Origin: Candidatus Microgenomates bacterium | Lineage (GTDB): Bacteria > Patescibacteriota > Microgenomatia > UBA1406 > GWC2-37-13 | Length of the DNA stretch: 34,585 bases | Assembly: GCA_023245215.1 (NCBI GenBank) | Contig: JAHFKS010000010.1 | Coordinates: 1-34,585 of the forward strand | Direction of reading: 5' to 3' | Program-made: the position numbers and the translations under genes | In this document: positions 7,563 to 18,339 of the stretch, piece by piece | Layout: each line of letters starts with the position of its first letter | How positions within the stretch are numbered: position 1 is the first letter of the stretch | The notes under the pieces: model-generated | Database searches by the model: none | Told to the model about the DNA's origin: nothing | Seen by the model: the letters and a program-made list of their open reading frames with translations, nothing else

Positions 7563-9440
7563 TTAGACTAATTTGTCCAATTCCCCTTTGGCTTCTTCTT
7601 CGATGAGGTTGCGATCCATTGAAGAGTAATAAAAGCGGAGAGTGAGTTTGTTATTGAATTGTGAAACAACCTCGACATTTATCAATAATTTTGAACTCAA
7701 AGCTTTTTCTTTTAATGATCTATAAGTATTATTTTTATCCAGGATAAAAGTTTTATCCAGCTTAATCACCGAATATTGGTTTAATTGTTTGAATTTCGGA
7801 ACCGACTGATAATTTTTAATCAGCTTGGATAATTCTATTTCCGTTACGAAAATGCCGTTTTTTTCTTTAATGTTTTCTGTAACGTCAAGCTTTATATTCA
7901 ATTCTTTATAAACTGCTTCTACTATTCCTTTTAAATCAAAATAATCGGTATTAGTTGCAATTCCCAGACGATAGTTTTCTTCTGGCAGGTCATTTTTTCT
8001 GGGAAGATAGACTTTTCCGATTTCAAAAAACCTCATGATGTCTTTTTTTCCTATATTGTCTTTGATGTTTTTGTACAAAGAAGGAAATAATGTGATCCGC
8101 AGGTATTCTATGTCTTCAGATATGCTGTTGGATAGCCTTAAGTGGTCTTCAATCTTTAATCCTGAATCCTGAATCATTTCTTTGGAAACCATCGAATAAT
8201 TTATCACCTCGTTTAGTCCAAGGTGTTTGAGCAATAATTTTATTTTGTTTTGAAAAACAAACAGGTCTTCCATTTCTTTTGGCTGTTCGACATAAGAGGG
8301 CGCCTGCAAACGTGAAGGAATATTTTGGTAACCATAGATTCTCGCTACTTCTTCAACCAAATCTTCCGGAATTGAAATGTCATATTTGCGGTAGGAAGGA
8401 ACGGTAACAGTCAAAAAATCCTTTTTTTCTTCCGCTCCAAATCCTAAGTTGGTTAGAATTTCCCTAATTTTTTTCCTGTCAATTTTTATACCAATCAATT
8501 TCTCGAAAGTTTCAAGCTTTATAACTATCGTCTTTTTTTTATAAGGGTTGGGGTAGATATCGTATATCTTTGAAGCCAGTTTTGCCGAAGCGTATTTTTG
8601 CAAGAGTTCCGTGCCGTAAACCAAAGTGGCTTCAACCCTTTCTTCATCGAGGCCTTTTTCAAAATAAGTCGCTGCCACGGTTCTGACTCCAGTGTTCATG
8701 ACGGTTTTGCGGACTTTTTCTTTGTTGTAGGTTTGGACAAAAAGGATAATGCGTTTGGTTTTGTTAGAAATGGCGGAATTGAGTCCGCCCATGATTCCGC
8801 AAAGGTCAACCAGCCTTCCCGATCCGTCTTCAATGACGATGTCTCCGCCAGGCAGGGTGATTTCCTGCTCGTCAAGGGTGGTAATTTTTTCGCCTTTTTT
8901 AGATTCACGCATTATCATGGTTTGTTTTTTGATTTCATCATAATCAAAGACATGGACGGGTTGCCCCAGAGTTAACATCAGATAGTTTGAAACATCAACG
9001 GCGTTATTGATGGATTTAATTCCAGCGGCAAGAACTCTTTCAGAGATAAATTTTGGCGAAGGGCCGATTTTGACATTGTCAAAAATAACCGCCGTAAATC
9101 GGGAGCACAGGTTTTTATCCTCAATTTTAACGTTTAAGGATAATCCGGAATTATTCTCTTTGATTTTTGTAAACTTATAAGCTGTTAATGGGTCAAACTT
9201 CAATTTAGCTTTTTTTCCGAACATCGGCAGGATGGCGGCTGCTTCCTGGGAAATGCCCAAAACCGACGCATAGTCTATTCGGTTGGAAATTATTTCAATG
9301 TCATAGACCCAGTCCCCATCAACTTTAGTTGCAGATTCTACAGATGGGCCGCACAAGGAAAGGTATTCTCTTATTTGGTCAGCCGTAGCGTCAGTTTCCA
9401 AATATTCCAGCAACCAATTATGAGTGATCTTTATATTCAT
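7563..9440 (-). CDS. pheT: Phenylalanyl-tRNA synthetase beta subunit (short form without the N-terminal EMAPII/OB domain)
   Basis: B3/4 and B5-type segments (VEEVARIYGYQNIP, SNSISEDIEYLRITLFPSL), FDX-ACB-like C-terminus; directly downstream of pheS. Confidence 0.9.
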   Translation of the reverse strand: MNIKITHNWLLEYLETDATADQIREYLSLCGPSVESATKVDGDWVYDIEIISNRIDYASVLGISQEAAAILPMFGKKAKLKFDPLTAYKFTKIKENNSGLSLNVKIEDKNLCSRFTAVIFDNVKIGPSPKFISERVLAAGIKSINNAVDVSNYLMLTLGQPVHVFDYDEIKKQTMIMRESKKGEKITTLDEQEITLPGGDIVIEDGSGRLVDLCGIMGGLNSAISNKTKRIILFVQTYNKEKVRKTVMNTGVRTVAATYFEKGLDEERVEATLVYGTELLQKYASAKLASKIYDIYPNPYKKKTIVIKLETFEKLIGIKIDRKKIREILTNLGFGAEEKKDFLTVTVPSYRKYDISIPEDLVEEVARIYGYQNIPSRLQAPSYVEQPKEMEDLFVFQNKIKLLLKHLGLNEVINYSMVSKEMIQDSGLKIEDHLRLSNSISEDIEYLRITLFPSLYKNIKDNIGKKDIMRFFEIGKVYLPRKNDLPEENYRLGIATNTDYFDLKGIVEAVYKELNIKLDVTENIKEKNGIFVTEIELSKLIKNYQSVPKFKQLNQYSVIKLDKTFILDKNNTYRSLKEKALSSKLLINVEVVSQFNNKLTLRFYYSSMDRNLIEEEAKGELDKLV

Positions 9441-13372: not shown

Positions 13373-13395
13373 AAAAAAACCCTCCTCTCGGAGGG
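13373..13395 (-). terminator. Rho-independent terminator of the 13414..14106 gene
   Basis: Minus strand CCCTCC-GAGA-GGAGGG followed by TTTTTTT. Confidence 0.88.
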
Positions 13396-13413
13396 AAGGT
13401 TATTGTCAAGAAC

Positions 13414-15601: not shown

Positions 15602-15630
15602 TTGACATACCTATAGTTATATGCTATAAT
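15602..15630 (+). promoter_or_regulatory. Perfect consensus sigma70-type promoter TTGACA-N17-TATAAT with extended -10 TGC
   Basis: cTTGACAtacctatagttatatgcTATAATact. Confidence 0.93.
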
Positions 15631-15638
15631 ACTTCCAG

Positions 15639-15686
15639 ATCCTAAGGTTTTTCAGATTTTTCTTGAAAAGCTTTAGGATTTTTTTT
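15639..15686 (+). promoter_or_regulatory. Leader hairpin: 15-bp stem, 11-nt loop, U8; right arm contains AGGA (SD) for ATG 15687
   Basis: ATCCTAAGGTTTTTC-AGATTTTTCTT-GAAAAGCTTTAGGAT-TTTTTTT(ATG); all 15 positions pair (two G-U). Confidence 0.85.
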
Positions 15687-16250
15687 ATGAAAAGAACTAT
15701 CTTGATGCTAATCATTACAGGACTGTTTCTCTTCAAAAGCGGCCTTGTCATGGCGGAAAACCAGGCTGGCAATTCTGCCCAGCTGGCTTTATCTGTAAAA
15801 TTTAATAAAGAAGAACAGGAAGCTCTAGATTTGAAAAGAAAAGAGTTAGCTATAAGAGCCGTTCTCAATCGTTATGATTCTCCTATGGCTGGACAGGAAA
15901 AAAGCTTTATAGAGGCTTGTAAAAAATACAACTTGGACTGTTATCTCCTTCCGTCCATTGCCGGATTGGAATCGACTTTTGGAAGATTCATATTACCAAA
16001 TTCTTATAATCCTTTTGGCTGGGGCCGTGGGTACTTAATGTTTAACGGCTGGCCGGAATCGATTGATGCTGTGGGCCAAGGCTTGAGGAATAACTATATA
16101 AACCGTGGGGCCGAAGGCGTCTATGGAATAGGGCCTATTTATTCTGAAAGCCCTACTTGGGCTGTTAGAGTAGCTTGGTTTATGAACGAATTCGAAAAAG
16201 AAGAAGGAAAAATATCATTGCTTTCTTCTGATTTTCCTGTAAAATTATAA
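15687..16250 (+). CDS. Secreted murein hydrolase-like protein (glucosaminidase/lysozyme-like fold)
   Basis: Signal peptide MKRTILMLIITGLFLFKSGLVMA|EN; YNLDCYLLPSIAGLESTFGRFILPNSYNPFGWGRG; SD AGGA 8 nt before ATG. Confidence 0.7.
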   Translation: MKRTILMLIITGLFLFKSGLVMAENQAGNSAQLALSVKFNKEEQEALDLKRKELAIRAVLNRYDSPMAGQEKSFIEACKKYNLDCYLLPSIAGLESTFGRFILPNSYNPFGWGRGYLMFNGWPESIDAVGQGLRNNYINRGAEGVYGIGPIYSESPTWAVRVAWFMNEFEKEEGKISLLSSDFPVKL

Positions 16251-16255
16251 ACTAA

Positions 16256-17122
16256 ATGTACAGCTACAAACTTAAAAAACTGCCTAAAAACAGCCTGGAA
16301 ATCAACCTAACTATTCCTGCAGCTGATATAAAGAAAGAAAAAGAAGGTGCTTTCTCAAGACTTCAGCAAGAACTGACAGTTGAAGGCTTTAGAAAAGGAA
16401 AAGTACCATTGCCTATCGCCCAAAAACATCTTTCTCCTGAAGCTGTTCTCCAAGAAATGATCAAGGTTTTGCTGACAAGAATCTATGAAGAAATCATAAA
16501 AAAAGACTCTTTAAGGCCGATAATCAACCCTAAAGTTGAACTTGTCAAAGTGCAGGACGGCCAGGATTGGGAAGTCAAATTGACCTTGGCAGAAAAACCA
16601 GTAGTCGAGCTGAAAGAATACAAAAAAGTCGTCAAAGAAACTATTGTTGAAGGAAAAAAAGCCGATATCTGGGTGCCGGGAAAAGATAAACCGGCTGATA
16701 AGAAACCAGAACAGGACAGGAGCAAACTTATGAATCTGATTCTTGAAGCGGTTTTGAAAGAAGTAAAAGTCGAGGTTTCGGACTTGATAATTAATGAAGA
16801 GCTTGATCTCAGGCTCTCACGTTTAGTAGATGACGTTGAAAAAATAGGTCTGACAACTGATGCTTATTTAAAATCAAAGAACCTGACTATGGATCAATTG
16901 AAGACTACTTACCGCCGGGAAATTGAAGATACTTACAAGCTTGAATTTGTTTTGTCAGAAATTGCCGACAAAGAAAATATCAAAGTCGAAAAAGAAGACC
17001 TGGACAAACTTTTTGTCAACATTAAGGATGAAAAAGAAAGGAAAGCGGCCGCAGAAAATAGCTACTATTATGCCTCGATTTTGAGGAAACAAAAGACGCT
17101 TGACTTCCTTCTCACCCTATAG
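16256..17122 (+). CDS. Trigger factor-like chaperone lacking the PPIase domain
   Basis: N-terminal ribosome-binding motif GFRKGKVPLPIAQK; C-terminal helical trigger-factor-like region; no FKBP-type segment. Confidence 0.8.
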   Translation: MYSYKLKKLPKNSLEINLTIPAADIKKEKEGAFSRLQQELTVEGFRKGKVPLPIAQKHLSPEAVLQEMIKVLLTRIYEEIIKKDSLRPIINPKVELVKVQDGQDWEVKLTLAEKPVVELKEYKKVVKETIVEGKKADIWVPGKDKPADKKPEQDRSKLMNLILEAVLKEVKVEVSDLIINEELDLRLSRLVDDVEKIGLTTDAYLKSKNLTMDQLKTTYRREIEDTYKLEFVLSEIADKENIKVEKEDLDKLFVNIKDEKERKAAAENSYYYASILRKQKTLDFLLTL

Positions 17123-17128
17123 TAAAAT
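17100..17128 (+). promoter_or_regulatory. Promoter TTGACT-N17-TAAAAT, 6 nt from ATG 17135
   Basis: gcTTGACTtccttctcaccctatagTAAAATctttgtATG; lies over the 3' end of the trigger factor gene. Confidence 0.8.
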
Positions 17129-17134
17129 CTTTGT

Positions 17135-17746
17135 ATGCAGAAACCAGCTTCAACTCAAAAATCACAAAACACTATTCCTTATAAAAATCCCTTAGAAAGT
17201 CTTCGTGACTTAGGCACAAATACGGCTAAAAAGACCGCCGACGCCTTTGGAAAAATTGGCGGAGGCATGCTTGATCAATTCTTCGGCGACTACGAATCAG
17301 ATGAAGAAAAAAGCCAAGATTTGTCAATTGATAAAGAGGCCAAAAAAGGACAAAAAAAACAGGAAGCAAAAGTTTTTAACTACCAGGAATATTACGAAAA
17401 TACCCTTGTTAAACGCCAGATTGCCGAACTGACAGAACAGATTAAAAAAGAAATTGAAGCTATTAAAAAAGCCGATTCTTCTCTTATTCAGGACGTCAAA
17501 GATATTGAAAAACTTACAGTTGATCAGCTTCCGGAAAAACCGGGAGTTTACCACATCCGCTTCCTGGAAATAGTTTTGAATATTTTGCGAGTTCTTAGGG
17601 CAAAGGTTGGCGAGTCAAAAACCTGGCTACAGGCTTTGATGTCGCGCAGAAAAAAAAGAGGCTCTTTATTTGCCTCAAGAAGCAAAAAATCAGGAACACA
17701 ATACTCGCTTTCACAAGAACTTCAATCAGCAAGAAGCGTTCAATAA
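17135..17746 (+). CDS. Hypothetical protein, DUF5660-like (CPR)
   Basis: Complete ORF; charged coiled-coil middle, YHIRFLEIVLNILRVLRAKVGESKTWLQALMSRRKKRGSLF. Family label from memory, not searched. Confidence 0.6.
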   Translation: MQKPASTQKSQNTIPYKNPLESLRDLGTNTAKKTADAFGKIGGGMLDQFFGDYESDEEKSQDLSIDKEAKKGQKKQEAKVFNYQEYYENTLVKRQIAELTEQIKKEIEAIKKADSSLIQDVKDIEKLTVDQLPEKPGVYHIRFLEIVLNILRVLRAKVGESKTWLQALMSRRKKRGSLFASRSKKSGTQYSLSQELQSARSVQ

Positions 17747-17748
17747 GA

Positions 17749-18339
17749 TTATTCCAGCGCTTTCAAGAAGGTATTGACTCCGTGAGACCAGCTTCCTGGT
17801 GAAGACGGCGTATATTTGCTCATAATTGCAGAAGCAGTCACGAGGCCTTTGTCTATATATTCTTCTTTGATGCCTTTTGCCACAGTATCTATGGCTTCGC
17901 CATAAGTGTCAAATTTAGTCACTGTAGAACCGTAGATGCCCCATCCCCAGCAGTTGTGGGAGTCGTCGGGTATGACCCGGCAGAGGTTTGATTCCTGCAT
18001 GGCAATTGCCGGTAAAAGTCTGTAATCAAACTGATAGCGATCAGACATGGCTACAATTCTGTCAGCCCATTCATAAAGGGGAGAATTATATTTTCTGAAA
18101 AAGGCTTTTAAGTTGCCGGTTCTTGCATCAGCCACAGAGACTTCAGTATTATATCCTGAATTATCGATTGGAGCGCTTGATGAATAAAACTGGCTGTTTT
18201 TGTTTTCATTGATGTCGGCGAGGATTTTTTCTATTTTTGCCTGCTTGTCAAAAAGGGCATAAGCTTTTATTGTCAGAAAAAAGTTCAGACCGGCCAAAAC
18301 AAAAAAAAGAACAAAATAAACAACGCTTTTTTTAAGCAT
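17749..18339 (-). CDS. Membrane-anchored/secreted murein hydrolase-like protein, related to 15687..16250
   Basis: N-terminal hydrophobic segment; YQFDYRLLPAIAMQESNLCRVIPDDSHNCWGWG...YGEAIDTVAKGIKEEYIDKG parallels the other copy. Confidence 0.68.
   Translation of the reverse strand: MLKKSVVYFVLFFVLAGLNFFLTIKAYALFDKQAKIEKILADINENKNSQFYSSSAPIDNSGYNTEVSVADARTGNLKAFFRKYNSPLYEWADRIVAMSDRYQFDYRLLPAIAMQESNLCRVIPDDSHNCWGWGIYGSTVTKFDTYGEAIDTVAKGIKEEYIDKGLVTASAIMSKYTPSSPGSWSHGVNTFLKALE

Follow-up and report, generated by a model that had tools for sequence, protein, structure and literature searches.

Organization of the locus

The window, a 34,585-nucleotide stretch of a Candidatus Microgenomates bacterium contig, carries a promoter and a hairpin with a U-tract directly upstream of a cell-wall hydrolase gene, which is followed by the gene for trigger factor and a DUF5660 gene (Table 1). 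Hydrolase and trigger factor presumably form one operon, and the order hairpin-hydrolase-tig was kept in many genomes; DUF5660 may also be transcribed separately, because a promoter-like site of its own (17100-17128) ends 6 nt 5′ of its ATG. PF01832 was detected in 14 of 18 hydrolase orthologues (weak matches, best 5.4e-05, with the window protein below the curated cut-off), and PDB profile matches to endo-beta-N-acetylglucosaminidases reached 1.5e-05. Start codons are inferred ones, and that at 15687, which gives the signal-peptide-like N terminus, was supported by orthologue alignment. The same protein occurs at 59% identity in Candidatus Roizmanbacteria bacterium UBA6242, and the group is here named, by inference, the Roizmanbacteria/Microgenomates class. 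A hydrolase paralogue lies convergent to the operon (17752-18339, minus strand); its -10-like TATAGT ends 6 nt 5′ of the ATG, and it is not preceded by a hairpin.

Table 1. Features of the promoter-hairpin unit and the genes downstream
Feature	Position	Strand	Basis or remark
-35 element TTGACA	15602..15607	+	consensus match; TTGACA in 119/134 homologous units
Spacer element CCTATAGT, consensus CYTATARt	15610..15617	+	CYTATA in spacers of 105/134 units
Extended -10, TGCTATAAT	15622..15630	+	TG in 106/134 units; TATAAT/TATACT in 113/134
Predicted ~50-nt RNA: hairpin from predicted +1, then U8; putative intrinsic terminator	15637..15686	+	fold, covariation
Near-invariant left arm AGATCCTAAGGT	15637..15648	+	conservation over 134 units
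Right arm GCTTTAGGA, then U-tract reaching the start codon	15670..15686	+	
Glucosaminidase-type cell-wall hydrolase gene, 187 aa, signal-peptide-like N terminus	15687..16250	+	
Trigger factor gene (tig)	16256..17122	+	5 nt after hydrolase stop
DUF5660 gene	17135..17746	+	next to tig in the window and in several further genomes

A strong promoter followed immediately by a hairpin

A TTGACA-N17-TATAAT promoter with an extended -10 had been proposed in an earlier, sequence-only reading of this DNA, and its coordinates were exact: TATAAT occupies 15625-15630, 17 nt after TTGACA, with TG one base 5′ of it, and this is the sole 12/12 promoter match between window positions 8000 and 24000. Among 134 homologous units, the -35/-10 spacing was 16-17 nt in 133, and the gap from the -10 element to the hairpin was 6-8 nt in all. 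Transcription is predicted to start at A15637, the base of the hairpin. As that reading had also described, 15 consecutive pairs join 15639-15653 to 15665-15679, T8 spans 15679-15686 and directly adjoins the ATG at 15687, and AGGA (15675-15678) lies in the right arm, 8 nt 5′ of the ATG. The pairs include a G·U (15646/15672) and a U·G (15648/15670). The 50-nt strand 15637-15686 folded at -21.9 kcal/mol (z -6.6), which none of 200 shuffles equaled. Within the left arm, TAAGGT (15643-15648, +7 to +12) is -10-like (TAnnnT) and nearly invariant across units, yet it is also part of the stem.

No Rfam release 15 covariance model matched the element in the window at gathering score, and the literature searched yielded no paper describing RNA elements of this kind in the group. 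Elsewhere in the window, upstream of thrS (13378-13408, minus strand), a terminator hairpin with T7 and then an ATG sits between TTGACA and TACAAT, and resembles an ordinary terminator combined with a promoter.

The unit is conserved across the class

We compared the unit over metagenome-derived genomes. Within the genus, the strict hairpin pattern was present upstream of the orthologous gene in 18 of 20 genomes, with a diverged form in G009, and the orthologous proteins were as little as 46% identical. Within the family, a covariance model matched in 64 of 73 genomes. The unit stood upstream of the glucosaminidase-type gene in 64 of 64 family genomes holding an orthologue, that is, a protein whose score clearly exceeded that of the paralogue; in the remaining nine there was no match, or paralogue-like or fragment matches only. 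The proposed link to a cell-wall lytic gene was thereby borne out. Across the class, model R2 (threshold E <= 0.003, E-values being rough) matched in 134 of 382 sampled genomes and 98 of 282 genera. The true spread is wider than these matches, because about 8 of 22 hydrolase loci in genomes without a model match showed a diverged version at a similar promoter (e.g., G094, G110, G125, G130, and G087). The unit normally occurs once per genome; a second copy in G018, which repeats the flank of the first, looks like an assembly duplicate. In the phylum-wide sample a single match fell outside the class (G634), a palindrome with neither promoter nor gene, which was taken as chance.

The stem covaries and its left strand is constrained in sequence

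In the family alignment (52 sequences), which was not fitted to the structure, 97% of cells were paired, two-sided changes occurred in 7 of 16 pairs, and covariation was 0.139 versus 0.082 (sd 0.005) for shuffles. In the class alignment (78 sequences), which was fitted to the structure and is thus biased towards it, 96% were paired, with two-sided compensatory changes in 12 of 16 pairs (69 cells) and covariation of 0.247 versus 0.113 (sd 0.006) for shuffles and 0.039-0.065 for slid controls. Stem covariation in orthologues, the test that the sequence-only reading had named for itself, was thus passed strongly, and the comparison supports a conserved, promoter-proximal, terminator-like hairpin with a predicted RNA of about 50 nt. 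A chance origin was ruled out by the shuffles, the covariation and the class-wide conservation, and a terminator of the upstream gene by the conserved promoter that intervenes.

Three further features were beyond the reach of a single sequence: constraint on the left-arm sequence, a pair 10 that is never G-C, and the conserved element in the promoter spacer. Over the 134 units, every left-arm position was at least 91% identical, and the arm was nearly invariant even at positions where pairing fails. Pair 10 was G·U in 92 units, G·G in 30, A-U in 12 and G-C in none, and U12 was retained in 132 of 134, opposite either G or A. Since G-C never occurs at pair 10 and U12 stays whichever of the two bases it faces, the left strand is, by this comparison, constrained beyond pairing. 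The apical loop and upper stem were variable and free of constraint. Resemblance to rRNA was considered, since TCCTAAGGT is reminiscent of what we take to be a conserved 23S stretch; CCTAAGGT is absent from the window's own 23S, the string is broken in compensated variants, and the idea was dropped.

In most genomes CYTATARTNNTNTGNTATAAT is essentially single-site, the one site being this promoter, and the CYTATARt spacer element was less conserved in some families. A regulator or antiterminator may bind this element; the conservation of the element might also stem from an ordinary operator. An upstream inverted repeat, TATARG...CYTATA, was visible within the genus and weak class-wide, and was dropped.

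The U-run is kept regardless of the downstream gene

The hydrolase lay downstream in 127 of 135 units, and outside the family of the window a hydrolase paralogue usually lay upstream of the unit as well. The gap from U-run to ATG was 0 in 47 units and at most 334 nt, and the U-run had a median length of 7 whatever the distance from hairpin to ATG. In the seven homologous units that lack a hydrolase downstream, it measured 7-8. The window hairpin is a stable stem followed by a U-tract, as in intrinsic terminators, and because the U-run is kept at every ATG distance and where the hydrolase is missing, the most plausible reading of the element is an intrinsic terminator that would yield an RNA of about 50 nt.

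The sequence-only reading had given the element two functions, termination and a block of translation. Only the terminator-like part held up. The second proposal, a translational switch or RNA thermometer that sequesters a Shine-Dalgarno sequence, starts from the AGGA lying at a suitable distance from the ATG in the window. It is rejected because the presence of AGGA proved independent of that distance (46 of 51 units with the ATG 0-3 nt away, 35 of 39 with the ATG more than 60 nt away). Furthermore, in three units of the family where the ATG abuts the U-run, L082 (AAGA), L085 and L089 (both AGCA), compensatory changes destroyed AGGA and kept the stem, which is itself very stable for such a switch. 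We consider this role very improbable. Still harder to credit is that the right arm supplies a -10 (TAGGAT, 8 nt 5′ of the ATG) from which a leaderless transcript would begin with the ATG. The DUF5660 gene and the window hydrolase paralogue do carry -10-like hexamers six nt before the ATG, but the same sequence is kept when the ATG is far away, a matching -35 is missing, and the stem covaries.

Several leaders hold additional structures. A second, non-conserved hairpin was found in some, with its own U-run before the ATG in a few (G322, G336, and G088). In ten loci (L012, L018, L014, L015, L013, L004, L006, L016, L078, and L081), the leader is longer by about 100-200 nt between the U-run and the ATG of the hydrolase. 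The additional stretch contains a hairpin, GAGUCYGU...ACRGACUC, that covaries (two-sided changes in 10 of 14 pairs), as well as further stems; the whole stretch is missing from sister genomes, among them that of the window, and Rfam gave no match at the loci with extended leaders either. A leader peptide after the U-run was also considered, since many units with a later hydrolase start have an ATG behind the run; on inspection the frames were not conserved.

In a few genomes the unit precedes other genes. The hairpin is followed by tRNA-Leu and/or tig in G242, G248 and G233 (the tRNA of G233 being convergent), by tRNA-Leu alone in G255, and by EF-P in G389 and G331; the EF-P genes and the tRNA-Leu genes of G248 and G255 were identified by inspecting the sequence. 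Promoter and hairpin persist in all of these genomes, including G242, G248 and G255, where the hydrolase is gone. At L188, L189, L247 and L251, tRNA-Leu directly follows the hairpin; the lineages concerned no longer have the hydrolase downstream. G070 (contig C1) has an extra, diverged promoter-hairpin unit (L187:2293-2341, plus strand) between two minus-strand genes; it has a full promoter and a compensated stem, ends 2 nt before the convergent gene, and has no co-directional gene downstream.

A regulated transcription brake as the favored explanation

We tentatively favor, at somewhat less than even confidence, a conserved and regulated transcription brake. RNA polymerase would initiate from the strong promoter so that +1 coincides with the hairpin base, and the nascent 5′ end would fold immediately into an intrinsic terminator. 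The U-tract would halt most transcription and release the RNA of about 50 nt, so that the hydrolase and trigger factor operon would be expressed by read-through alone. Because the predicted transcript starts at the hairpin, an RNA-only antiterminator would be impossible in the window, which would leave a factor acting in trans, or else leakiness at a fixed level. Taken together, the spacer element and the TAAGGT near the predicted 5′ end suggest that an antitermination protein would load onto the promoter-proximal polymerase in the manner of Q and AlpA. Such protein-dependent antitermination is our best guess; the architecture fits, and the protein is hypothetical. The second U-run hairpins in some leaders would be consistent with a brake. 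Against it stand the extra G070 copy, which an attenuator does not explain; the lower conservation of the spacer element in some families; and, by analogy, the conserved hairpin sequence, whereas terminator sequence has no known importance in the Q and AlpA systems.

Foremost among the rivals is an autonomous small RNA gene. Its hairpin of about 50 nt would act in trans, perhaps through a protein bound to the irregular basal stem, with the hydrolase merely lying downstream. This reading draws on the G070 copy, on the units that persist beside tRNA-Leu, a convergent tRNA or EF-P, and on the combination of a normally single copy, a strong promoter and a near-invariant basal stem. However, the RNA has no conserved single-stranded region for base pairing, its apical loop being variable, and a purely trans role leaves the hydrolase linkage, and the many units whose ATG abuts the U-run, unexplained. 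As a complete account we regard it as rather unlikely; an RNA role compatible with the brake is left open by the exceptions, above all by the G070 copy. Less probable is an unregulated leader, in which the hairpin would fix a low level of a dangerous enzyme or protect the mRNA 5′ end. A hairpin at +1, a U-run and a lytic product would suit it, but the near-perfect promoter, the invariant left arm, the never-G-C pair and the conserved spacer would all be unneeded.

In its most specific form, the brake would be released by a dedicated protein that binds the spacer site and passes polymerase through the +1 terminator into hydrolase and trigger factor. This would be a non-phage, vertically inherited, class-wide switch of the Q/AlpA kind, whose off-state RNA may have a role of its own; taken as a whole, this version is a speculative one, and we think it unlikely to hold in every part.

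Gene regulation in these ultrasmall bacteria is almost unknown, and about 100 of their genera have retained this undescribed RNA and promoter element. The peptidoglycan hydrolase to which it is attached could have a part in cell division or in attachment to a host. The element raises the question whether antitermination from a promoter-embedded site, so far found mainly in phages and phage-like lysis systems, is a core chromosomal mechanism here.

Comparison with known systems

Attenuators controlled by proteins or riboswitches (TRAP, PyrR, LicT, T-box) place a leader terminator ahead of the gene. The present unit shares that terminator 5′ of the gene; unlike them, it would allow no alternative antiterminator, its predicted RNA starting at the terminator, and it has no Rfam match. 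The short gap between -10 and hairpin in every unit leaves no upstream room for an antiterminator or aptamer of the riboswitch or T-box type. The put RNA of HK022 (PMC9378689) is likewise a structured RNA element acting on termination, but put suppresses termination, whereas the hairpin with U-tract here is terminator-like.

The Q proteins of phages lambda, 21 and 82 (PMC6606751) offer another parallel, with a promoter-embedded site, a short terminated off-state RNA and lysis genes downstream; here, however, the terminator is immediate rather than distal, and the locus is not a phage. In the Q and AlpA systems, sigma-paused polymerase takes up a protein from its binding site between -35 and -10, and this protein enables it to pass a terminator that precedes lysis genes (PMC7969949, PMC9371919). 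At alpBCDE of Pseudomonas aeruginosa, the AlpA target, an element between -35 and -10 and a -10-like sequence are found with an intrinsic terminator before the lysis genes, and AlpA reads through heterologous terminators (PMC7969949, PMC9371919). The unit described here has corresponding parts: a conserved element between -35 and -10, which in most genomes is unique to this promoter, a -10-like sequence past the predicted start site, which is at the same time the left arm of the stem, and a putative intrinsic terminator immediately 5′ of a cell-lysis gene. It differs in that the hairpin begins at +1 and is conserved in sequence and structure across the class, and in that a chromosomal hydrolase gene, linked to that of trigger factor, lies downstream. 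The likeness is one of architecture, and the relation to Q and AlpA is an analogy rather than membership.
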